From the NCBI GenBank assembly GCA_017542245.1, contig JAFXXN010000074.1, positions 25,057 through 89,056 on the forward strand: a stretch of 64,000 bases of DNA, in the 5' to 3' direction. The DNA comes from Lachnospiraceae bacterium (GTDB taxonomy: Bacteria; Bacillota; Clostridia; Lachnospirales; Lachnospiraceae). Below, in pieces: positions 31,734 through 45,403 of the stretch (position 1 is the stretch's first letter; each line of letters begins with the position of its first letter). The notes below the pieces were generated by a model that did not search any database, was not told where the DNA came from, and was given only the letters and a program-made list of their open reading frames with translations. A program made the translations under genes and the position numbers.

Positions 31734-34700
31734 ATGAAAGGTAGTTTCAAACATCTTTTGACGCTTCTTTTGGCTTTCACACTTGTATTCACTCATGCCG
31801 TAACACCGGTATATGCTGAAGCAGGAGAAGAACCAAATGAGGCTGATTCTGGCAATTCCACTCAGTTGGAAATGGAGGATCTGGATCCAAGTACTCTGAA
31901 TGTTAAAAAACAGGGTACTGATCTTGTAAAGGAAGATCCGGAAGAGAATGATGCACTGTCATTAGATCAGAATGCAATAGTACGTGTATCAATTATTCTG
32001 GATGGAGATTCCGTTATTGATGCCGGATATTCTGCCAAGGGTATTGCCGATAACAGTTCTGCAGTTTCTTACAGAAACAAGCTGAAGAAGCAGCAGGCCA
32101 GTGTAACAAAGACTATTGAAAAACAGCTGAAAAAGGAACTGAATGTAAAGTGGAACCTGACATTGACAATCAATGCCATCTCCGCTGAAGTTAAAGTTTC
32201 AGACATTAATAAAATTAAGATGGTTTCCGGTGTTAAGAATGTAATTCTGGAAAACCGTTATGATGCTCCAATAACCAGTAAGTCAGATCCTCAGACAGCC
32301 AACACTTCAGCAGGAATGGTTGGTGCTCAGGAGACCTGGAGTGCAGGTTATACAGGCGCTGGAAGCCGCATTGCAATTATTGATACAGGTCTGGATATCT
32401 TCCATGATTCATTCAATCCAGATGCTTTTGATTATGCTATAAGTCAGCTGGATTATGAACCTGTTCTGTTAACTGAAGATGATGTTAACAGTCTTGCTTC
32501 ACAGTTGAATGTTCCTGGCGCATATGTTGATTCAAAAGTTCCATTTGCATTTAACTATGTAGACATGAACTATGACATCACTCACAGCAACGACAGACAG
32601 GGAGAACACGGTTCACACGTTGCAGGTATTGCTGCTGCCAACAGCTATATCGAAACTGAAAATGGTTTTGAGAAGGCAATTGATACAGTTATGGCAGTTG
32701 GTATGGCACCGGATGCACAGCTGATTGTGATGAAGGTATTTGGCACAGGTGGTGGCGCTTACGATTCAGATTATTTTACAGCACTTGAAGATGCTATGGT
32801 TTTAGGCTGCGATGTAGCTAACCTGTCATTAGGCTCAGGTTCTCCTGGCTTTACATTCAGTGATTATTATCAGGATGAATTGAACAGACTGAACAGTGAC
32901 GCTAACAGTAACATGGTTGTTGCCATTTCTGCAGGTAACGTTGGCGCTTTTGCTGATAATACTGCTATGGGAGTTTTATATGCTGAAGATGTAAGCATGC
33001 ATTCAGGCGGTTCACCAGGATCATTCATCAACAGCTTATGCGTTGCTTCTGCTGACAATATCGGTACAACCGGTAAGCCTCTGCAGTTCGGTGATCTTAA
33101 TGTTTACTATAATGAAAGTGTTTCAGAAGCACGTGCTCCAATGGCTTCTTTAGCAGGCACTCAGGAATTTGTATATATTGATGCTTTGGGTTCTGTTGAG
33201 GACTACGCAACAGTAAATGACGCCGTTTCTCTGGAAGGCAAGATCGTTATCATCAACCGTGGTGGTTTGACATTTGTTGAAAAGGGAAATAATGCGGTAG
33301 AATTTAATCCTGCTGCCTTAATAGTTGCCAATAATCAGCCAGGTTCAATTGGCATGTTATTGGATGACTGTGTTGCAACATTCCCAATGATAACAATTTC
33401 ATTTAGTGATGCAAACGCAATTAAGGCTGCTTATACGGCAGCAGAAGCTGGCGGCATTAAATATTATACAGGTTCTGTTAATGTAACAGATGCTGTCACT
33501 TCTGATATTACAGGTACCCGTGAAGATGCTACAGTTTCATCATTCAGTTCATGGGGCATTCCGGGTTCATTGATTATGAAGCCTGAAATTACTGCACCTG
33601 GTGGAAACATCTATTCAGTATTTGGTACAAGCAATGATACAAATGGTAATCCTCAGGGCGGTGTAAGCGAATATGAAATGATGAGCGGTACTTCAATGGC
33701 TGCTCCTCATATTGCCGGTTTAACTGCAGTTGTAGCAGAATATCTGCGTCAGAATGATCTGTCAGAAATGAACAGTGAACTTGCTGAGAATTATTCAGTA
33801 CGTGCAGTTGTCCAGAGCTTACTGATGTCAACAGCTACTCCTATGAAGAATGACGGCCAGTTTGTTTCAATTTTACAGCAGGGTGCTGGTCTGGCTGAGG
33901 TTTCAAAAGCAGTCAGTGCTCCTTCAGTTGTAATGGTAGGTGCTGATGACGATACCTTAACTGCATACACAGGTGCAGCTGCCGATGGCAAGGTAAAAGT
34001 TGAGTTCGGTGATGATTTGCTGACAGACAGAAAATATATATATTCATTCACAATTTATAACCTTTCTGATACAGATCTTGAATATAAATTAAATACTGAA
34101 ATGTTCACTCAGGATATTGCTTATGATGGACAGAACTTATATATGCTTCCTGAAACATGGCCAATAAATGCCAATGTTGAATATGAATGGTCACCGGTTG
34201 ACATTGCAATTGAACATGACGTAGACAAAGATGGTGATACTGATAAAGATGATGCTCAGGCACTTCTGGACTATATCACAGGTGTTGTTGATGGAACAGA
34301 ACTTGATCTTGATGCCGGTGAAATGGATAAAGACGGTAAGATCACATCTCATGATGCTTACTTATTACTGATCTGGACTGGTGAAAGTGAAGAACTTAAT
34401 GTTGTTCCTGCTCATGACAGCAGAACAGTAACAGTAACCATCACTATTGATGACGAGATGATGGAATACTTTGAAAGAGGTGCATATATTGAAGGTTTCA
34501 CTACTGCTGAATCCAGCTCATACAGTGAAGAAGGCGTAGATTTATCTCACAAGCATTCAATCCCATTATTAGGTTTCTATGGTAACTGGGGCGATCCTTC
34601 AATGTTTGATAACAACAGCATTGTTGATTTTTACTACGGAAACACTAAGTATCCATACAGCTTTATGCAGTATAATACTAACTATTATAATGCTACAGGT

Positions 34701-37547
34701 AAGGAGTTAAGTTTAGGCGAATTCCTGAGCTATTTCCCAACTAATTGCATGGTAATTAAGTATAATGGTGTAAACTCAATAATGTACGGAAACCCATACT
34801 ATATTGAAGATGAATTCCCTGCTGATAAACTCGCAGTCAATGGAAACGATGTTTTGAATTCTATTAACTATACATTACTGCGTTCAGCTGGAGCCACAGG
34901 ATATGTAGCAGCATTATTAGATGATTATAACGGTAATGTTAAAGGCATACTTGATTTATCAATTGATAAAGAAAGAGCAGTTGGTATGTGGTACAGCGAA
35001 AAAGACGCTGAAATGAAGAACATAGCCAATCAGACTTATCCAATTGGTGTTAAACCAAGTGAATATGGACTTGAAGAAGGAGATGTTTTCCGTGTTGGTT
35101 ATTATGCTGTTCCAGAATATCTCGCCATGTTATTATACGGTGATTTTGATTCACAATATGGCGGTATAACAGACGGAAATGGATTACAGTTTGCTTTACG
35201 GTATGATCTTTTAGGTAAGGGCTCATACATTGGCTATGATTTTAAGGTTGATAATACAGCACCTAAGATCACGAAAGCTACTTTAAGCGAAGATAACAGC
35301 ACAATTACTATTGAAGCTGAAGATAATTTCAATCTGGCATATGTAGCAATTATGTCTGTTGATGGAGAAGAATACTTCTATGAAGCTGCTCCAGGTGAAG
35401 ATAAGTTTACTGTAGAAATCCCTGCAGAAAACATCGTAACTGATGCTAAAGGATATGTAGCAGTATTTGCAGCTGACTATGCAGCTAATGAAACGGCTGT
35501 TGCCTTAAAGGTTAATGATGAAGAAGGTATGGATCCATATACTGTTGCTTCAGTAACAGTTTCACCAAAGACCTTACATCTCTATGTTGGTAATGAAGAA
35601 GATCTACTTGCCAAGGTAAGTCCTATCACTGCCGATAAGACAGTTGTCTGGGAAAGCGATGATCCGACTGTTGCCACAGTAGATGACACAGGACGTGTTG
35701 TTGGTGTCAGCAAGGGACAGACTGTTGTCAGAGTATCTGCTGCAAGTGATGAAACAGTATATGATGAATGTGTTGTATACGTAGAACAGATAGATGCTGA
35801 TTTCAACGCAATAGTCTGGGATGTTGATGCTTCACAGTTCATTTCCTCATTTAATATGAAGAGCCTGCCAACATGGAACAAACTGCATTCAAATGGTTAC
35901 CATATGAATCTTGCATCAACGCTGGCAATATCAGATACAGATGTTTATGTAGGATCACTTGATACAAGTACAGCAGAAGGAAATCTGTATTTTGCAGACT
36001 TAACAGAAGCTGAACCTGAACTTGAACTTGTTGCTCCATGCGCTTATTGGTCAAATGACATGGCACTTGTTTCAGAAACATACGCAGCATATTTCCCTTA
36101 CTATTTCTATACAGAAGGCACATATGCAATCTTAAGTTCATTTGAACCAGAGGCGATGGATGAAAGTGGTATTGAATATGTAAATGTTCCATATGCAGCA
36201 ATTCAGATTACAAACGGTGCATATTTATCAGGTATTGCCTTAAAATCTGAACTGGATATGTCTACTGGTCAGGTAAGCTACTATGTACTGGATGAAGGCG
36301 GTGTAATCTATGAATTTACATATGACTTGTTTAACAATGCATTAGTAAGCGGTGGAATAGTAGTTCAGACTGGTATTACAACGTCATTCCTGTATCAGTC
36401 ACTCTACGCTGATGAGGATTTCATCTACTGGAGTTGTTACGAAGAAGGCGATACAACATCTCATATGGTCGTTTATGATATAAACAACAAAGTATTATAT
36501 ACAGACGCTGGTAACTTTGGTGAAGGTGTATGGCCAGTTCAGGGATTATACAGAACAAGCCAGACAACCGCAGATCAGGGTGGAAGTGTTCCAACAATTA
36601 CATTGGAGCCTTTGAAATCAAGTATTCTTGATGAAAAACGTGCTGAATTTGATGCACGCTTAACAGCGGAACTGAATAAGTTCAGCAAGCTCAATAAGGT
36701 TGCACCTAAGCCAGTTGAAGAAGCTCCTGTTACTGAAGAAGAATCAGTTAATGAAGAAGTAGTTGAAACAGTCGAAGGTGCTGTAACTGCTGCTGGCGAT
36801 ATGATTGAGAACAAGTTCATGACTGTTAAGTTCCCAGTCAGAATGGCTATTAAGGGTGCTTCAACAACAGATGACGAAGGTACAGCCACAATCGTTTTAA
36901 CTGAAGTTGAAGATGCTACTAACGGTTTCTGTGAAATCACTTATGATGCTAAGAACCTGAAGAATCCAACAGTTACTCCTGAAGAAGGAATTACTCTGAC
37001 TTCATACACAGTGGATGAAGAAAATGGCGTAATCAAGTTCGCTTATGCAACTGAAGAAGCTGTAAAGGCTGGCGACAAGGTTGCTACCGTTACCTTCGAT
37101 GCACCATGTGAAAACAGCGACGTTACAATCAAGACAACTGAACGCAATGACGAAACAGATCTTGAAGAAGAAACAACTGTTACTGTTGAAGGTGTTGGTC
37201 ATCAGTGGAGTGAACCAGAATGGACATGGAGCAAGGATCATAAGGAAGCTACAGCTAAGTTCGTCTGCGAAAACAACGAAGAACATGTCGTTGAAATAAC
37301 AGAAAAGGCTGTAATTGAAGAAACTCCTGCAACTGAAGAAAAAGAAGGCAAGAGAGTATATACCGTAACTGTAACTGGGCCTGATGGTGAAAAGTACACT
37401 ACAACATATACCGAAGTCATTCCTGCAGGTGTAGATACCGGAGATGCTTCAAATATCGTATTATGGTCATCTGTATTTGGTGGAAGCGTTGTTGTCATTG
37501 CTGCTATCTTACTGGCAATGAAGAAAAAAGGTTATTTCACTAAATAA
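31734..37547 (+). CDS. Cell-envelope subtilisin-family (S8) protease, very large, with dockerin-like and cohesin-like segments
   Basis: This 1937-residue exported serine protease has a signal peptide ending near VYAEA (28-30) and an inhibitor-I9-like propeptide around 75-180. The S8 domain has the catalytic aspartate in IAIIDTGLD (217), the histidine in EHGSHVAG (292), the oxyanion asparagine in SAGN (402) and the serine in SGTSMAAPH (654). A PA-type insert lies at about 460-590, so the layout matches lactocepin/C5a-peptidase relatives. Further on are a dockerin-like calcium-loop pair (DVDKDGDTDKDD near 829 and DKDGKITSHDA near 866), a Big_2 domain (1268-1352), a cohesin-like segment (about 1686-1822) and a C-terminal membrane helix with a KKK tail. 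No LPXTG is present; PAGVDTGD precedes the helix. It probably cleaves extracellular proteins or peptides at the cell surface. Confidence 0.93.
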   Translation: MKGSFKHLLTLLLAFTLVFTHAVTPVYAEAGEEPNEADSGNSTQLEMEDLDPSTLNVKKQGTDLVKEDPEENDALSLDQNAIVRVSIILDGDSVIDAGYSAKGIADNSSAVSYRNKLKKQQASVTKTIEKQLKKELNVKWNLTLTINAISAEVKVSDINKIKMVSGVKNVILENRYDAPITSKSDPQTANTSAGMVGAQETWSAGYTGAGSRIAIIDTGLDIFHDSFNPDAFDYAISQLDYEPVLLTEDDVNSLASQLNVPGAYVDSKVPFAFNYVDMNYDITHSNDRQGEHGSHVAGIAAANSYIETENGFEKAIDTVMAVGMAPDAQLIVMKVFGTGGGAYDSDYFTALEDAMVLGCDVANLSLGSGSPGFTFSDYYQDELNRLNSDANSNMVVAISAGNVGAFADNTAMGVLYAEDVSMHSGGSPGSFINSLCVASADNIGTTGKPLQFGDLNVYYNESVSEARAPMASLAGTQEFVYIDALGSVEDYATVNDAVSLEGKIVIINRGGLTFVEKGNNAVEFNPAALIVANNQPGSIGMLLDDCVATFPMITISFSDANAIKAAYTAAEAGGIKYYTGSVNVTDAVTSDITGTREDATVSSFSSWGIPGSLIMKPEITAPGGNIYSVFGTSNDTNGNPQGGVSEYEMMSGTSMAAPHIAGLTAVVAEYLRQNDLSEMNSELAENYSVRAVVQSLLMSTATPMKNDGQFVSILQQGAGLAEVSKAVSAPSVVMVGADDDTLTAYTGAAADGKVKVEFGDDLLTDRKYIYSFTIYNLSDTDLEYKLNTEMFTQDIAYDGQNLYMLPETWPINANVEYEWSPVDIAIEHDVDKDGDTDKDDAQALLDYITGVVDGTELDLDAGEMDKDGKITSHDAYLLLIWTGESEELNVVPAHDSRTVTVTITIDDEMMEYFERGAYIEGFTTAESSSYSEEGVDLSHKHSIPLLGFYGNWGDPSMFDNNSIVDFYYGNTKYPYSFMQYNTNYYNATGKELSLGEFLSYFPTNCMVIKYNGVNSIMYGNPYYIEDEFPADKLAVNGNDVLNSINYTLLRSAGATGYVAALLDDYNGNVKGILDLSIDKERAVGMWYSEKDAEMKNIANQTYPIGVKPSEYGLEEGDVFRVGYYAVPEYLAMLLYGDFDSQYGGITDGNGLQFALRYDLLGKGSYIGYDFKVDNTAPKITKATLSEDNSTITIEAEDNFNLAYVAIMSVDGEEYFYEAAPGEDKFTVEIPAENIVTDAKGYVAVFAADYAANETAVALKVNDEEGMDPYTVASVTVSPKTLHLYVGNEEDLLAKVSPITADKTVVWESDDPTVATVDDTGRVVGVSKGQTVVRVSAASDETVYDECVVYVEQIDADFNAIVWDVDASQFISSFNMKSLPTWNKLHSNGYHMNLASTLAISDTDVYVGSLDTSTAEGNLYFADLTEAEPELELVAPCAYWSNDMALVSETYAAYFPYYFYTEGTYAILSSFEPEAMDESGIEYVNVPYAAIQITNGAYLSGIALKSELDMSTGQVSYYVLDEGGVIYEFTYDLFNNALVSGGIVVQTGITTSFLYQSLYADEDFIYWSCYEEGDTTSHMVVYDINNKVLYTDAGNFGEGVWPVQGLYRTSQTTADQGGSVPTITLEPLKSSILDEKRAEFDARLTAELNKFSKLNKVAPKPVEEAPVTEEESVNEEVVETVEGAVTAAGDMIENKFMTVKFPVRMAIKGASTTDDEGTATIVLTEVEDATNGFCEITYDAKNLKNPTVTPEEGITLTSYTVDEENGVIKFAYATEEAVKAGDKVATVTFDAPCENSDVTIKTTERNDETDLEEETTVTVEGVGHQWSEPEWTWSKDHKEATAKFVCENNEEHVVEITEKAVIEETPATEEKEGKRVYTVTVTGPDGEKYTTTYTEVIPAGVDTGDASNIVLWSSVFGGSVVVIAAILLAMKKKGYFTK

Positions 37548-40051: not shown

Positions 40052-40786
40052 ATGTTCAAGATTTTAGTCAGAGATAATTACGATGAAGTTTCAAAAGAAG
40101 CGTTCAAAATAATGAAGAAAGTTCTGAATACCGGTTCACCAGTATTAGGCTTAGCTACAGGATCTTCTCCTGTAGGATTATATAAGGAAATGATCAGGGA
40201 TCATCAGGAAAACGGTACAAGCTACCAGGATATTCTGACGTTCAACCTTGATGAATATGTAGGTCTGCCAAGAGATCACAGAGAATCATACTGGACATTC
40301 ATGCATGTTAATCTGTTTGATCACATTGACATTCCTGAAGAAAACATCCATGTTCCATTAGGAAACGGTGATATCAAGAAAAACTGCAAGGCTTATGAAA
40401 AGGAATTAAAGAAGCATACAGTAGACATTCAGGTATTAGGTATCGGTTCAGATGGCCACATTGCGTTCAACGAACCAGGCTGCCCATTTGACAGTGAAAC
40501 CCATGAAATGGAACTGACAGAACAGACCAGAACTGATAATGCCAGATTCTTTGACGGCGATATCAATCAGGTACCAAAGAGTGCAGTAACCATGGGCCTG
40601 GCTTCAATCATGAGAGCCAAGAAGATCATCCTGATCGCAACCGGTGAAAATAAAGCCCAGGCTGTTAAGGATATGATTGAAGGGCCTAAGTCTGTAGACT
40701 GCCCAGCCAGTATCTTACAGGATCATCCTGATGTAACAGTATTACTGGATAAGCCAGCTGCTTCCAAGTTAACTCTCTTCAAATAA
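40052..40786 (+). CDS. nagB: NagB: glucosamine-6-phosphate deaminase
   Basis: NagB converts glucosamine-6-phosphate to fructose-6-phosphate and ammonia, feeding amino sugars into glycolysis. The 244-residue length is that of the short Gram-positive type. ATGSSPVGLY near 36-45 binds the phosphate, NLDEYVG near 66 holds the catalytic aspartate and GIGSDGHIAFNEPG near 131-144 the catalytic histidine region. GGAGG precedes the ATG. nagA lies 8 kb away at 48.5 kb rather than next to it. Confidence 0.96.
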   Translation: MFKILVRDNYDEVSKEAFKIMKKVLNTGSPVLGLATGSSPVGLYKEMIRDHQENGTSYQDILTFNLDEYVGLPRDHRESYWTFMHVNLFDHIDIPEENIHVPLGNGDIKKNCKAYEKELKKHTVDIQVLGIGSDGHIAFNEPGCPFDSETHEMELTEQTRTDNARFFDGDINQVPKSAVTMGLASIMRAKKIILIATGENKAQAVKDMIEGPKSVDCPASILQDHPDVTVLLDKPAASKLTLFK

Positions 40787-40796
40787 GGTGAAATTA

Positions 40797-41462
40797 ATGT
40801 ATACAATCAAAGACATGTATGATCTTGATCACACCATGGCTAAGGAATACCTGGAAGGATTTACCTATCCATGGGAAGCCTTAAAGGGGATCAAGGAGCT
40901 GATTATCGAACTGGGAAAACAGCTTGATAAGGAAGAATACGATGAAGTAAGTGAAAATGTCTGGGTACATAAGACTGCCAAGGTCTTCCCGACTGCTTAT
41001 CTGGGAGCACCTTGCATCATCGGTCCAAACACTGAAGTAAGACACTGTGCCTTCATCAGAGGTAGTGCTCTGGTAGGTGCTGACTGTGTTGTCGGCAACA
41101 GCGTTGAATTAAAGAACGTCATCCTGTTTGATCATGTACAGACTCCTCATTACAACTATGTTGGTGACTCTATCTTAGGTTACTATTCACACATGGGTGC
41201 CGGTTCCATTACTTCTAATGTAAAGAGTGATAAGAAACTGGTCGTTGTTCATAACGGCACTGAAAAGATCGAAACTGGCCTGAAGAAATTCGGTGCCATG
41301 GTTGGTGACTATGTGGAAGTTGGCTGTAACAGTGTTCTTAATCCGGGCTCTGTAATTGGCCGTCACAGCAATGTTTATCCAACCAGCTGTGTCAGAGGCG
41401 TTGTTCCTGAAAACAGCATCTGGAAAAACAGCGGTGAGATCATCAGCAAAAAGGAATTTTAG
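40797..41462 (+). CDS. Left-handed beta-helix (hexapeptide repeat) acyltransferase-like protein
   Basis: This 221-residue protein has a helical N-terminus of about 60 residues followed by hexapeptide repeats (VWVHKTAKVFPTAYLGAPCI and onwards) like the acetyltransferase half of GlmU. The conserved SILGYYSHMGAGSITSN segment near 125 matches sugar-nucleotide acyltransferase helices. There is no nucleotidyltransferase domain. The ATG at 40,797 has AAGGTGA upstream; a GTG at 40,788 lies inside that site. It follows nagB by 10 bases, so an amino-sugar phosphate is a plausible substrate. Confidence 0.7.
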   Translation: MYTIKDMYDLDHTMAKEYLEGFTYPWEALKGIKELIIELGKQLDKEEYDEVSENVWVHKTAKVFPTAYLGAPCIIGPNTEVRHCAFIRGSALVGADCVVGNSVELKNVILFDHVQTPHYNYVGDSILGYYSHMGAGSITSNVKSDKKLVVVHNGTEKIETGLKKFGAMVGDYVEVGCNSVLNPGSVIGRHSNVYPTSCVRGVVPENSIWKNSGEIISKKEF

Positions 41463-41523: not shown

Positions 41524-42324
41524 ATGAAGAAGATTAAGATGGTGGTTTTCGACATGGACGGTACGGTTTTTCCAATGCAGAGCAGTACCTGCAGTGCGGA
41601 AACAATCAAGGCTCTGGAAGCCTGTAAGGAAGCAGGAGTAATTACTTCGCCATGTTCCGGTCGAAGCATTTTCATGATTCCTGAGGAAATAAAAAAGGCC
41701 ATCAATACGAAATATGTAATCTACTGTAATGGGGCTTATATTGCCAATCCAGTTACTGAGGAAATAGCTGACAGTAATCCCGTTGATAAGAATAAGATCA
41801 TAGAACTGTTCAGAAAAGCGCAGATGGATGGTGTTTACCACAAACTTTCAACTTTCCATCAGTTCATTGATGACAATACCAGCGGCAAGACTTTTGGAAC
41901 CATTCCGGCCATATTTGTGGATGACATCTATGAAACACTGGAAAACCTGAATGAACCGCTGTATAAGGCTGAGTATTTCTTCTATGAAGACTTAAGTCTC
42001 AGAGAGAAAATCATGGATATCATAAAGGATGAAAAGGAGTTCTTCTTTTCAAGTGCCTTGCCGGTAAACATCGAAATAAACAATCCTAAGGCAACCAAAG
42101 GCCAGGCTATAAAGAGACTGGCTGAACTGTACGGCTTTTCACTGGATGAAGTCATGGCCATCGGTGACGGGGATAACGACATGACCATGCTGGAAGCGGC
42201 AGGCTTCTTTGTCGCCATGGGTAACGGCTCGGATATCCTGAAGCGGAAAGCTGATGCGGTTACCGATACCGTTGATAATGAAGGTTTTGCCAAGGCAATT
42301 TACAAATATGTCTTAAACAAATAA
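41524..42324 (+). CDS. HAD-superfamily phosphatase, Cof type
   Basis: This 266-residue cytoplasmic hydrolase has the HAD motifs in order: DMDGTVF at about 9-15 with the nucleophile aspartate, SGRS near 45, the lysine in KATKGQAIKRL near 190 and GDGDNDMTML near 214. The cap between motif I and III is the large C2B type of Cof-like sugar-phosphate and cofactor phosphatases. The substrate cannot be predicted. AGGAAAC lies upstream of the ATG. Confidence 0.9.
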   Translation: MKKIKMVVFDMDGTVFPMQSSTCSAETIKALEACKEAGVITSPCSGRSIFMIPEEIKKAINTKYVIYCNGAYIANPVTEEIADSNPVDKNKIIELFRKAQMDGVYHKLSTFHQFIDDNTSGKTFGTIPAIFVDDIYETLENLNEPLYKAEYFFYEDLSLREKIMDIIKDEKEFFFSSALPVNIEINNPKATKGQAIKRLAELYGFSLDEVMAIGDGDNDMTMLEAAGFFVAMGNGSDILKRKADAVTDTVDNEGFAKAIYKYVLNK

Positions 42325-42362
42325 GGAAGAATAAAGTATACTGATAAAGGTGAGGTGTTATC

Positions 42363-43853
42363 ATGTTAACAATATCAATCGCAATGGATGAGAAAAAGGG
42401 CATCGGTTATAAAGGCCGGCTGCCATGGCATTTAAAGGAAGAACTGCAGCTGTTCAAGTCCAATACCATGGGCAAGAACATCTTAATGGGACAGACTACT
42501 TATGACGGTTTACCGCGTAAGCTGAAAGGCAGACATACCATCGTCTGCTCAATTGATCCTGAATATAAAGTGAATGATCCTGATGCTGAAGTAACATATG
42601 ATCTGAAGAAGTTCCTGGATGAACACGAATTCAGTGATGATGAAGTAATCGTCTGCGGTGGAGCTTCCATTTACAGACAGGCCTATCCGTTCTGCTCAAA
42701 AGCTCTTATCTCTTTTGTAAAAGGTGAGTATGAAACAGATACCCGTTTTGACATCTTTGATCTCAATGACTGGAATATTGATAAGGAAGTTGAATACGAA
42801 GACTTCATTTACAGAGAACTAAGCCGAAAGAGAAATGACAAGGCCATCTTCGTAACAGGCTGCTGCGGTTACATAGGTTCTCATACCGTTGTGGAACTGC
42901 TGAACGATAACTATGATGTTGTGGGACTTGATAACTTCAGCAACTCCAAACCGGAAGTACTGAACAAGATCACGGAACTGACCGGTAAGAAGGTAAAATT
43001 CTATGAAGGCAACATGCTGGACAGAGAATTACTGGAAAAGATCTTTGATGAAAACAATATCGGTGCAGTCATTGACTTTGCTGCTTATAAGGCAGTAGGC
43101 GACAGCGTTAAGAAACCTGTTGAATACTATACCAACAATGTCAGCAGTGTTCTGACACTTCTGGCTGTCATGAAGGAAAAGAACGTCAAGTCAATCGTCT
43201 TCTCTTCTTCAGCTACTGTCTACGGTTCTGAAAACCCGGTTCCGTTTAAGGAAGACATGCCAATCGGCGGCACGACCAATCCATATGGAACAAGTAAGGT
43301 TTTCGTAGAACAGATTCTGAAGGATCTCTGCTTCGCTGACAACACTTTCAATGCCTGTGTCTTAAGATATTTCAACCCTATCGGCGCACATGAAAGCGGA
43401 CTGATCGGTGAGAATCCTAACGGCGTACCGGCAAACTTACTGCCATTCATTGACAAGGTAGCCATGGGCAAACTGGAAAAGCTGAACATCTTCGGCGATG
43501 ACTATCCGACACCAGATGGCACCGGCGTCAGAGATTACATTCATGTAGTTGACCTGGCTAAGGTTCACATCAAGGGTTTGGAAAAGATCGCTCATAAAAA
43601 CGGCAGTTATTATGTATACAATATTGGTACCGGCGTAGGCTACAGTGTACTGGATATCGTAAAGGCCTACGAAAAGGTAAATGACATTAAGATTCCTTAT
43701 GTTATTGCTCCAAGAAGACCAGGCGACATCGCAACCTGCTACGCTGATTCCAGCAAGGCTAACAGAGAACTTAACTGGCACACTACCAAGGATCTGGAAG
43801 ACATGTGCCGCGACTGCTACAGATTCGTTGTAAACTGCAGCAAGGAACAGTAA
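42363..43853 (+). CDS. Dihydrofolate reductase-UDP-glucose 4-epimerase (GalE) fusion
   Basis: A single frame of 496 residues joins two complete enzymes. Residues 1-157 are a dihydrofolate reductase: GIGYKGRLPWHLKEEL with an acidic residue (E27) at the catalytic position, GRHTIVCS near 56-63 and VCGGASIY near 97-104. Residues about 161-496 are GalE: TGCCGYIGSHT with the NAD glycine motif at 166-172, SSSATVYG and NPYGTSK (catalytic tyrosine and lysine), then YFNPIGAH. The linker is only a few charged residues (KRNDK). GGTGAGGTG precedes the ATG. DHFR makes tetrahydrofolate with NADPH; GalE interconverts UDP-glucose and UDP-galactose. No metabolic reason for the fusion is evident. Confidence 0.93.
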   Translation: MLTISIAMDEKKGIGYKGRLPWHLKEELQLFKSNTMGKNILMGQTTYDGLPRKLKGRHTIVCSIDPEYKVNDPDAEVTYDLKKFLDEHEFSDDEVIVCGGASIYRQAYPFCSKALISFVKGEYETDTRFDIFDLNDWNIDKEVEYEDFIYRELSRKRNDKAIFVTGCCGYIGSHTVVELLNDNYDVVGLDNFSNSKPEVLNKITELTGKKVKFYEGNMLDRELLEKIFDENNIGAVIDFAAYKAVGDSVKKPVEYYTNNVSSVLTLLAVMKEKNVKSIVFSSSATVYGSENPVPFKEDMPIGGTTNPYGTSKVFVEQILKDLCFADNTFNACVLRYFNPIGAHESGLIGENPNGVPANLLPFIDKVAMGKLEKLNIFGDDYPTPDGTGVRDYIHVVDLAKVHIKGLEKIAHKNGSYYVYNIGTGVGYSVLDIVKAYEKVNDIKIPYVIAPRRPGDIATCYADSSKANRELNWHTTKDLEDMCRDCYRFVVNCSKEQ

Positions 43854-43862
43854 GAAGATATG

Positions 43863-43890
43863 ACCGGATATGATTGTATCCGGTTTTATT
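43863..43890 (+). terminator. Rho-independent terminator after the DHFR-GalE gene
   Basis: ACCGGATA (43,863-43,870) pairs with TATCCGGT (43,877-43,884), followed by TTTATT. Confidence 0.75.
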
Positions 43891-43936: not shown

Positions 43937-45403
43937 ATGGATAATATTGAAAAGCTGGTTTTACTGCACTCAAATGACATGCACGGTGACTTTCTGGCGG
44001 AAGCCAAGGACGGCAGTGAGGTAGGCGGTGTCTCTCTTTTATCCGGTTACATCAAGCAGCAGCGTGAAGAGAATCCTAATGTCTTATATGCCATTGCGGG
44101 AGACATGTTCAGAGGCTCGGTAATCGACAGTGAGTACCGCGGTTTCTCAACCATAGAACTAATGAACTTTCTCAATCCTGATATCGTGACCTTGGGTAAC
44201 CATGAAGTTGACTACGGACTGACACATCTGCTGTTTCTGGAGAAGTGTGCCAAGTTCCCGATCGTTAATGCCAACATGTACATCAAGACCAATCACACCA
44301 GACTGTTTACGCCATACAAGATCATTGATGTAAACGGACTGCATATCATGTTCATCGGTATCATTACCGAAGAAGTACTGGCCTCTACAAAAAGTGAGTC
44401 AATTGTCGGAACTTTCGTTGATGTCTGGGAAGCTGCTAAGCAGGTTGGTGTCATCATTGATAACTACAAGACAACCAGAGTAGACCTGACGGTATTGCTG
44501 ACACATATAGGTTATGAAAATGACATTGAACTGGCTAAGGTCCTTGACCCTGAATGGCGTGTTGACATGATCATCGGAGGTCATTCCCACACCTTATTAA
44601 CAAGACCTAAGGTCATAAATAACGTTCCTATCGTACAGGTCGGTGTCGGTACCGATCAGATCGGACGTTTTGAAATCAACATCAATACTGAACAACATAA
44701 GATGATCGATTATAAGTGGGAAGTAGTTCCAATTACTTCAAAGAACTGTCCGACTGATCCGATTCTGGAAGAAGTACTGCAGAACTATAAGAAGGAAACA
44801 GACCGCAAGTTCGGCCGTGTCTTAACCGTATTCAAGAGAGAACTGACACATCCTTCCCGTGCTCAGGAAACGGAACTGGGTAATCTGTTCGCTGACCTGC
44901 TGCAGGTTGACTCCAGCTTTGATGTCATGTTCTACGGTTCCGGTTCAATCAGAAAGAAAAAAGTCGGACCAATCGTCCGCTACCAGGATCTGCTGGAGAC
45001 CGTACCGTTCCAGAACCGGGTCTACATGCTGGAAGTAACAGGACGGCAGTTCAGACACATGTGCCGGCATTATCTGAAACAGAGTGTTGTTACCAAGGGT
45101 GAATCGGAATTCTACCAGCTTTCAGCCGGCATGAAGGTTGTCTATAACTACGCCACTGATACCCTGGAAGAGTGCTCATTAAACGGTAATGAGATCACTG
45201 ATGACCAGTGGCTCAAGATAGCCTTACAGAGTTTCCATTACCTTAACTTCACCGAATTCTTCGATGTGGACATTAAGGAAGTAGAGGCACATAAGAAAGC
45301 CAGAATGGTCATTACCAATGACTTCTCAATCTTTGAAGAACTGCTGTCATCAGCCAACAATACCGATGCAGAAGTGGAAGGCAGAATAGTTATTAAACAG
45401 TAA
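43937..45403 (+). CDS. 5'-nucleotidase/UshA-family metallophosphoesterase, apparently cytoplasmic
   Basis: This 488-residue protein has the N-terminal calcineurin-like domain (LLHSNDMHGD near 8-17, GDMFRGS near 55, LGNHEVDYG near 85-93, IGGHSHT near 212) and a 5'-nucleotidase C-terminal domain (ELGNLFADLLQ near 314 and a YGSGSIR segment near 333). UshA relatives are normally exported; this one starts directly at the phosphatase domain with no signal peptide or membrane helix. AGGAGG lies 9 bases before the ATG, so a missed start is unlikely. It may hydrolyse nucleotides or related phosphoesters inside the cell. Confidence 0.88.
   Translation: MDNIEKLVLLHSNDMHGDFLAEAKDGSEVGGVSLLSGYIKQQREENPNVLYAIAGDMFRGSVIDSEYRGFSTIELMNFLNPDIVTLGNHEVDYGLTHLLFLEKCAKFPIVNANMYIKTNHTRLFTPYKIIDVNGLHIMFIGIITEEVLASTKSESIVGTFVDVWEAAKQVGVIIDNYKTTRVDLTVLLTHIGYENDIELAKVLDPEWRVDMIIGGHSHTLLTRPKVINNVPIVQVGVGTDQIGRFEININTEQHKMIDYKWEVVPITSKNCPTDPILEEVLQNYKKETDRKFGRVLTVFKRELTHPSRAQETELGNLFADLLQVDSSFDVMFYGSGSIRKKKVGPIVRYQDLLETVPFQNRVYMLEVTGRQFRHMCRHYLKQSVVTKGESEFYQLSAGMKVVYNYATDTLEECSLNGNEITDDQWLKIALQSFHYLNFTEFFDVDIKEVEAHKKARMVITNDFSIFEELLSSANNTDAEVEGRIVIKQ

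Follow-up and report, generated by a model that had tools for sequence, protein, structure and literature searches.

The stretch of DNA analyzed in this study (64,000 nucleotides, referred to as the window) carries a fused gene at 42363..43853 on the + strand: one open frame of 496 codons and a stop (a single terminal stop in the translation), in which dihydrofolate reductase (DHFR) precedes UDP-glucose 4-epimerase (GalE), with full-length equivalents in four further genomes. The DHFR half corresponds to residues 1-155 (42363..42827, + strand), with PF00186 at 2-146 and model strands from 2-8 to 148-155; it is followed by a K-R-N-D-K linker at residues 156-160 (42828..42842, + strand) and by the GalE half at residues 161-496 (42843..43850, + strand), with TIGR01179 at 162-493. 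In an AlphaFold2 model of the fusion from a 53-row alignment (mean pLDDT 91.4, pTM 0.79), both domains were present, and residues 156-160 formed a loop between the last DHFR strand (148-155) and GalE strand 1 (161-165). Each of the five alternative reading frames has stop-free runs of 138 codons at most, compared with 496 in the fused frame. A sequence-only reading of the locus had proposed a single 496-residue frame with full-length DHFR and GalE, and this was confirmed by translation, Pfam, NCBIfam, and the model; its estimate of approximately 157 residues for DHFR, with a charged linker of five residues, was also right. The thymidylate synthase domain (PF00303) was absent from the 10 families matched in the fused chain by a Pfam search.

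Upstream of the fusion, on the + strand, are nagB for glucosamine-6-phosphate deaminase (40052..40786; TIGR00502, 289 bits against a cut-off of 236.9), a gene for a left-handed beta-helix acyltransferase-like protein that resembles the C-terminal part of the GlmU type (40788..41462; PF00132 hexapeptide, and positions 207-393 of TIGR03992 below the cut-off), and a gene for a Cof-type HAD hydrolase (41524..42324; TIGR00099, 149.4 bits against a cut-off of 137). The next gene downstream, also on the + strand, encodes a 5'-nucleotidase-like metallophosphoesterase (43937..45403; PF02872 and PF00149), unlike the fusion locus L038, in which the following gene is a member of the nucleoside 2-deoxyribosyltransferase family (PF05014). 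A consensus scan gave a possible promoter, TAAACA-17-TATACT, at 42314..42342 (+ strand), with a number of sites not above chance, and promoter-like sites were no commoner in this region than in shuffles. By eye, each of the five fusions has a TATACT (four cases) or TATAAT (one case) that ends 19-22 bases upstream of its start codon. The sequence AGTATACT, part of a near-palindrome, was found approximately 20 bases upstream of the start codon in four of the fusions (window, L038, L039, and L092), and may be a -10 element or an operator. A terminator-like hairpin was called just past the stop (43862..43885, + strand), as was one behind the fusion in L038, L039, and L091; in L092, none was called. 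The fusion is likely to be a single-gene transcription unit, as predicted from these elements.

Properties of the DHFR and GalE halves

PF00186 (DHFR_1) matched residues 2-146 with an E-value of 2.8e-35 and 121.8 bits against a cut-off of 25, over profile positions 2-143 of 159, and the same residues aligned with solved DHFRs. LPWHLKEEL (aligned with LPWHLPADL of 3tq8) and VCGGASIY are found in this half, giving it the LPW motif, the acidic residue, and the GGxxxY nucleotide motif of DHFRs. Viral DHFR models matched the fusion model in a viral fold library, and DHFR structures were not among the 50 matches shown in a Foldseek search of the fusion model against PDB. In the MGR motif, all five fusions have Gln instead of Arg, as do the unfused DHFRs of three genomes (G063, G064, and G184), and since these unfused enzymes share Gln, the replacement would be older than the fusion. 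The motif reads MGQTT at 42486-42497 in the window, likewise in the unfused DHFRs of loci L042, L088, L089, and L090, and MGR in 29 other family DHFRs; Arg was found in 29 of the 30 loci fetched from the family, these being the 29 whose frame was found. In E. coli DHFR, this Arg contacts the 2'-phosphate of NADPH, and we regard it as a cofactor contact, presumably not a family-defining trait of PF00186. The replacement may point to a shift in the cofactor preference of DHFR. The subgroup of fused and unfused DHFRs is on a long branch in the DHFR tree (1.28 changes per column).

The GalE half scored 415.7 bits at residues 162-493 with TIGR01179, the GalE equivalog model of NCBIfam (cut-off of 262.3). 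GalE structures gave TM-scores of 0.93-0.96 over the target in the Foldseek search against PDB (first 25 of the 50 matches shown), and the top match was 9hjn_A (0.94). According to the available part of one source, the sugar is held by K85, S125, Y150, and N180 of GalE (PMC5349592). The segments KAVG, SSSATVYG, NPYGTSK, and RYFNPIGAH of the fusion align with human and bacterial GalE, the motifs being matched to these numbered residues by eye. The same part of the source describes a specificity position, Y299 in E. coli and C307 in human, that governs the substrate range (PMC5349592). Placed by an alignment with human GalE, this residue is Y in three of the fusions (G061, G062, and G087), with C in the window and S in G201; therefore, some of the fused enzymes may act on UDP-GalNAc in addition, and others on UDP-Gal only. 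A substrate range that would vary while the fusion stays counts mildly against a precise metabolic coupling. The galactokinase model TIGR00131 matched eight of the nine genomes of the genus described below, none of them (0/9) above the cut-off.

Occurrence of the fusion and origin of the contig

Full-length fusions were found in four genomes of one Erysipelotrichaceae genus, a small group of gut bacteria: G061 (86% identity to the window), G062 (86%), G087 (85%), and G201 (79%). The named records of this genus here are all metagenome-assembled genomes (MAGs). Among its nine genomes, four had the fusion, three (G064, G184, and G135, the last with stop codons in the match) had an unfused GalE match, and two (G162 and G214) had neither. 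A family search (195 genomes, 1e-3) gave G061, G062, G087, and G201 as the sole full-length fusions among the matches listed, and in an order search (315 genomes, E <= 1e-130), in which a distantly related fusion that scores weakly over GalE could have been missed, 21 matched and the full-length fusion was confined to the same four. DHFR was found in 147 of the 190 family genomes; among the frames listed, those of 497-498 amino acids were the four fusions, followed by one of 419 amino acids in G122 and then by 216 amino acids. The search for other DHFR-GalE fusions that had been proposed from the sequence gave these four at the thresholds used, all in a single genus. A phage or plasmid origin was rejected on plasmid, phage, and viral fold searches: no plasmid and no phage records covered 80% of the fusion query, and each of the 50 viral fold matches shown aligned over at most 395 columns of the model, which has 496 residues.

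The window is part of contig C142 of a 4.72-Mb MAG (G000) with 8.58% contamination and a mutL gene on each of C142 and C86. Such contamination and the second mutL might favor an assembly or binning artefact that joined two genes, but five assemblies with clearly different nucleotide sequences share the junction, and the four other genomes contradict this explanation, the probability of which is negligible. The DHFR-GalE fusion is genuine and old, and neither chance nor an assembly error accounts for it, because the four further genomes have a full-length open fusion with the junction in the same place.

No full-length fusion was found in 60 relatives of G000 among the matches listed. A scan of 84,980 species genomes with short peptide patterns returned six relatives, two of which were fused: L038 (MAG Erysipelotrichaceae bacterium SIG225) and L039 (an uncultured Firmicutes MAG). 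It is unlikely that the fusion is owned by the MAG's own genus, in view of the 0/60 result and the duplicated mutL; the window contig appears most likely to have been misbinned, as a stray from the Erysipelotrichaceae genus. The genome context of the gene must therefore be read in that genus, with the window organism itself represented by contig C142 alone. The G+C content of the window, in 4-kb steps, is 0.31-0.37 in 1-32000 and 0.39-0.45 in 32001-64000, and positions 31734-37547 encode a predicted surface protein of 1937 amino acids, judged by eye to be subtilase-like in its N-terminal part and to have a C-terminal membrane segment. The mixed MAG has a DHFR match on a 4.6-kb contig (G000:C28), and another of its folA loci (L003, on G000:C146) has the order thyA, folA, and aldose 1-epimerase, a folate gene beside a galactose-type gene.

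A check for a second folA or galE had also been proposed. Since the assembly is mixed, the answer was obtained in the sister genomes, in which neither a second DHFR nor a close second GalE was found. Each of the four fused sister genomes had one DHFR match, the fusion itself (4/4), and, besides the fusion, one weak match to the GalE half (28-30% identity). ThyA was found in three of them, on other contigs, and none was found in G062; this agrees with the earlier remark that the partner differs from the usual thymidylate synthase, as does the lack of PF00303 in the chain. The fusion would thus apparently be the only source of DHFR and GalE activities in these four genomes, which are drafts or of unstated completeness, so that a sole copy is not certain. 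ThyA normally depends on DHFR. G162 and G214 have ThyA and no DHFR or GalE match, and may regenerate tetrahydrofolate by another route or be incomplete drafts.

Ancestry of the fusion and the surroundings of folA

Maximum-likelihood trees (29 rows each) placed the five fused rows in one group, with supports of 100/99 for the GalE half and 93/83 for the DHFR half (the latter just under the strong mark of the tool), and the internal order, ((((G061,G062),G087),window),G201), was identical in both trees. One origin of the fusion is likely because the five fusions group together in the trees of either half. The unfused DHFR from G063 was placed, on a long branch, next to the fused group (89/88) in the DHFR tree, with its counterparts from G064 and G184 outside. 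G063 is not among the nine genomes of the genus, and its placement would misfit a simple within-genus history, unless caused by a long-branch error or a transfer. Purifying selection acts on both halves: dN/dS was 0.051-0.086 (DHFR) and 0.059-0.069 (GalE) in five pairs and 0.007 and 0.020, respectively, between G061 and G062, five of the six values resting on a dS above 1 and hence being rough. The four pairs with G201 were saturated, with pN/pS of 0.145-0.153 (DHFR) and 0.153-0.193 (GalE). The junction was poorly conserved, with 33-83% identity at residues 153-158 compared with 79-99% for the halves (five fusion pairs computed).

The 30 best-scoring folA loci of the family were compared together with as much as 1.5 kb of flanking sequence (2.1-3.5 kb each); 23 had a ThyA match and none a GalE match. 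In L042 (G063), the DHFR of which groups with those of the genus, thyA is directly before folA. The unfused folA of G184 is after a LytR-CpsA-Psr gene and before scpA; that of G064 is also after a LytR-CpsA-Psr gene, overlaps a family-2 glycosyltransferase gene by 4 bases, and is among surface-glycan genes (LytR-CpsA-Psr, glycosyltransferase, and choline-kinase/nucleotidyltransferase), with galE 15 kb apart on the same contig. Since these neighbors differ between L042, G184, and G064, folA has moved among these genomes. In G064, folA is found twice, in the parallel loci L088 and L089, the gene order of which is alike by eye; these may represent two strains in one MAG. The surroundings of the fusion itself are nagB, the hexapeptide protein, and HAD in the window, G061, G062, and G087 (partly by eye), and, in G201, a response regulator and a Tex-like gene (the latter by eye).

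In L042, the separate DHFR stops at the equivalent of residue 156; those of L089, L088, and L090 extend 6, 10, and 16 residues more, and the start Met of unfused GalE lines up with residue 160 of the fusion. With DHFR ending at approximately 156 and the GalE Met at 160, a fusion would therefore need little beyond the removal of one stop codon and one start codon between close neighbors. In the ancestor of the fused species, a rearrangement would have taken folA from its usual pair with thyA and placed it just upstream of galE; the stop codon of folA and the start codon of galE would then have been lost, by mutations the exact nature of which is hypothetical, leaving a linker of a few residues. 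Another fused frame was found in G122 (L120:1495-2742), where a single frame of about 416-419 amino acids contains DHFR and then a domain of the inositol monophosphatase family. The two parts could be translated separately from a methionine at the junction, and thyA is still upstream. This frame suggests that folA tolerates other C-terminal partners.

Functional interpretation

DHFR-thymidylate synthase of protists and plants is a bifunctional enzyme, according to the available parts of two sources (PMC5464667 and PMC1435751). As in the fusion here, DHFR is part of a bifunctional chain; however, its partner there is the consecutive enzyme of the same cycle, and not an unrelated sugar-nucleotide epimerase. 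In yeast Gal10 (PDB 1z45), matched by both sequence and fold, GalE is also a fusion domain, joined to mutarotase; GalE is N-terminal and the partner belongs to the same pathway, whereas GalE is C-terminal to DHFR here. The first 191 of the 505 positions of NCBIfam NF001751 (PRK00478, segregation/condensation protein A) matched residues 1-191 (E-value of 3.7e-16), which suggests that this model may describe a DHFR-ScpA fusion; the putative partner is ScpA, not GalE, and folA adjoins scpA in the unfused G184. The frame of G122, from the same family, also has an N-terminal DHFR in a longer chain, but with another partner and in one genome only. No report of a DHFR-GalE fusion was found in a literature search of titles and abstract openings, and we know of no link between the two enzymes.

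The fusion is probably a bifunctional enzyme joined by chance, in which folA left thyA and merged with galE, and the two halves would act independently, tethered at a ratio of 1:1. One polypeptide would be made from one ribosome-binding site, probably in one promoter-terminator unit. The DHFR half would serve the ThyA encoded elsewhere, and the GalE half would supply UDP-galactose or UDP-GalNAc, needed for surface glycans and in the utilization of galactose; each half would work as it would alone. The fusion would persist mainly because fission would require a stop, a ribosome-binding site, and a start codon to arise simultaneously, and not because of pathway coupling. As splitting needs several changes together, retention alone is weak evidence for selection. 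On the other hand, that the fusion was kept through near-saturated synonymous divergence and changed surroundings is equally expected of a selected fusion.

A selected coupling, e.g. UDP-galactose matched to thymidylate-limited growth, or GalE altered or stabilized by the binding of folate or antifolate to DHFR, would fit this retention in five genomes, the short linker of the model, and the position of folA among surface-glycan genes in G064, with galE on the same contig. We consider it unlikely, since GalE was matched in none of the 30 family folA loci, which are unfused or otherwise fused, the junction is poorly conserved, the specificity residue of GalE (C, Y, or S) does not indicate a constant role, and DHFR is joined to an unrelated enzyme in G122. 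The suggestions in the sequence-only reading of a functional tie between folate and UDP-galactose and of a shared NAD(P)-related regulation received no support, given the 0/30 for GalE (ThyA, 23/30) and the unrelated partner in G122. A specific form, also quite unlikely, is a selected coupling device in which the folate or cofactor state of DHFR would set the stability or activity of GalE, and the replacement of Arg by Gln could permit the use of NADH and a pool shared with NAD-dependent GalE.

Two proteins might alternatively be made from one gene, via an internal GalE start or cleavage of the charged and variable linker, and an in-frame ATG is found at residue 153 or 154 in four of the five fusions. 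However, the window has CTA there, and between residue 111 and a GTG at 177, inside the Rossmann fold, none of the codons ATG, GTG, and TTG occurs in frame; therefore, complete GalE would come only from the fusion in the window, unless a rarer start codon is used. The Met at 153/154 is also found in the unfused DHFRs of G064 and G184 (Leu in G063), and so looks like an inherited DHFR residue, and no ribosome-binding site was recognized by eye before the ATG, making this explanation very unlikely. It is still harder to accept, as highly improbable, that one half has no enzyme activity and is now a structural or regulatory domain. The long branch of the DHFR subgroup and the replacement in the MGR motif could be read in this way, but the latter is shared by the unfused DHFRs and predates the fusion, both halves are under purifying selection, and the sister genomes have no other DHFR match or other close GalE, while three of them have ThyA. 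The earlier view that both halves look active is supported by the motifs, this selection, and the sister genomes, and both are probably active.

Fusions are commonly taken as a sign that two proteins cooperate. If the fusion were a coupling device, antifolates or thymidylate stress would directly alter the supply of UDP-galactose for surface glycans. For the bifunctional enzyme joined by chance, which we prefer, the fusion could mislead the prediction of links from fusions, and annotation pipelines may label the gene with a single activity in such genomes. Because it joins enzymes without a known link, is kept in five genomes of one genus, and is apparently the sole source of both activities in four, this fusion provides a clean case for asking if the conservation of a fused gene reflects function or just how hard it is to split.
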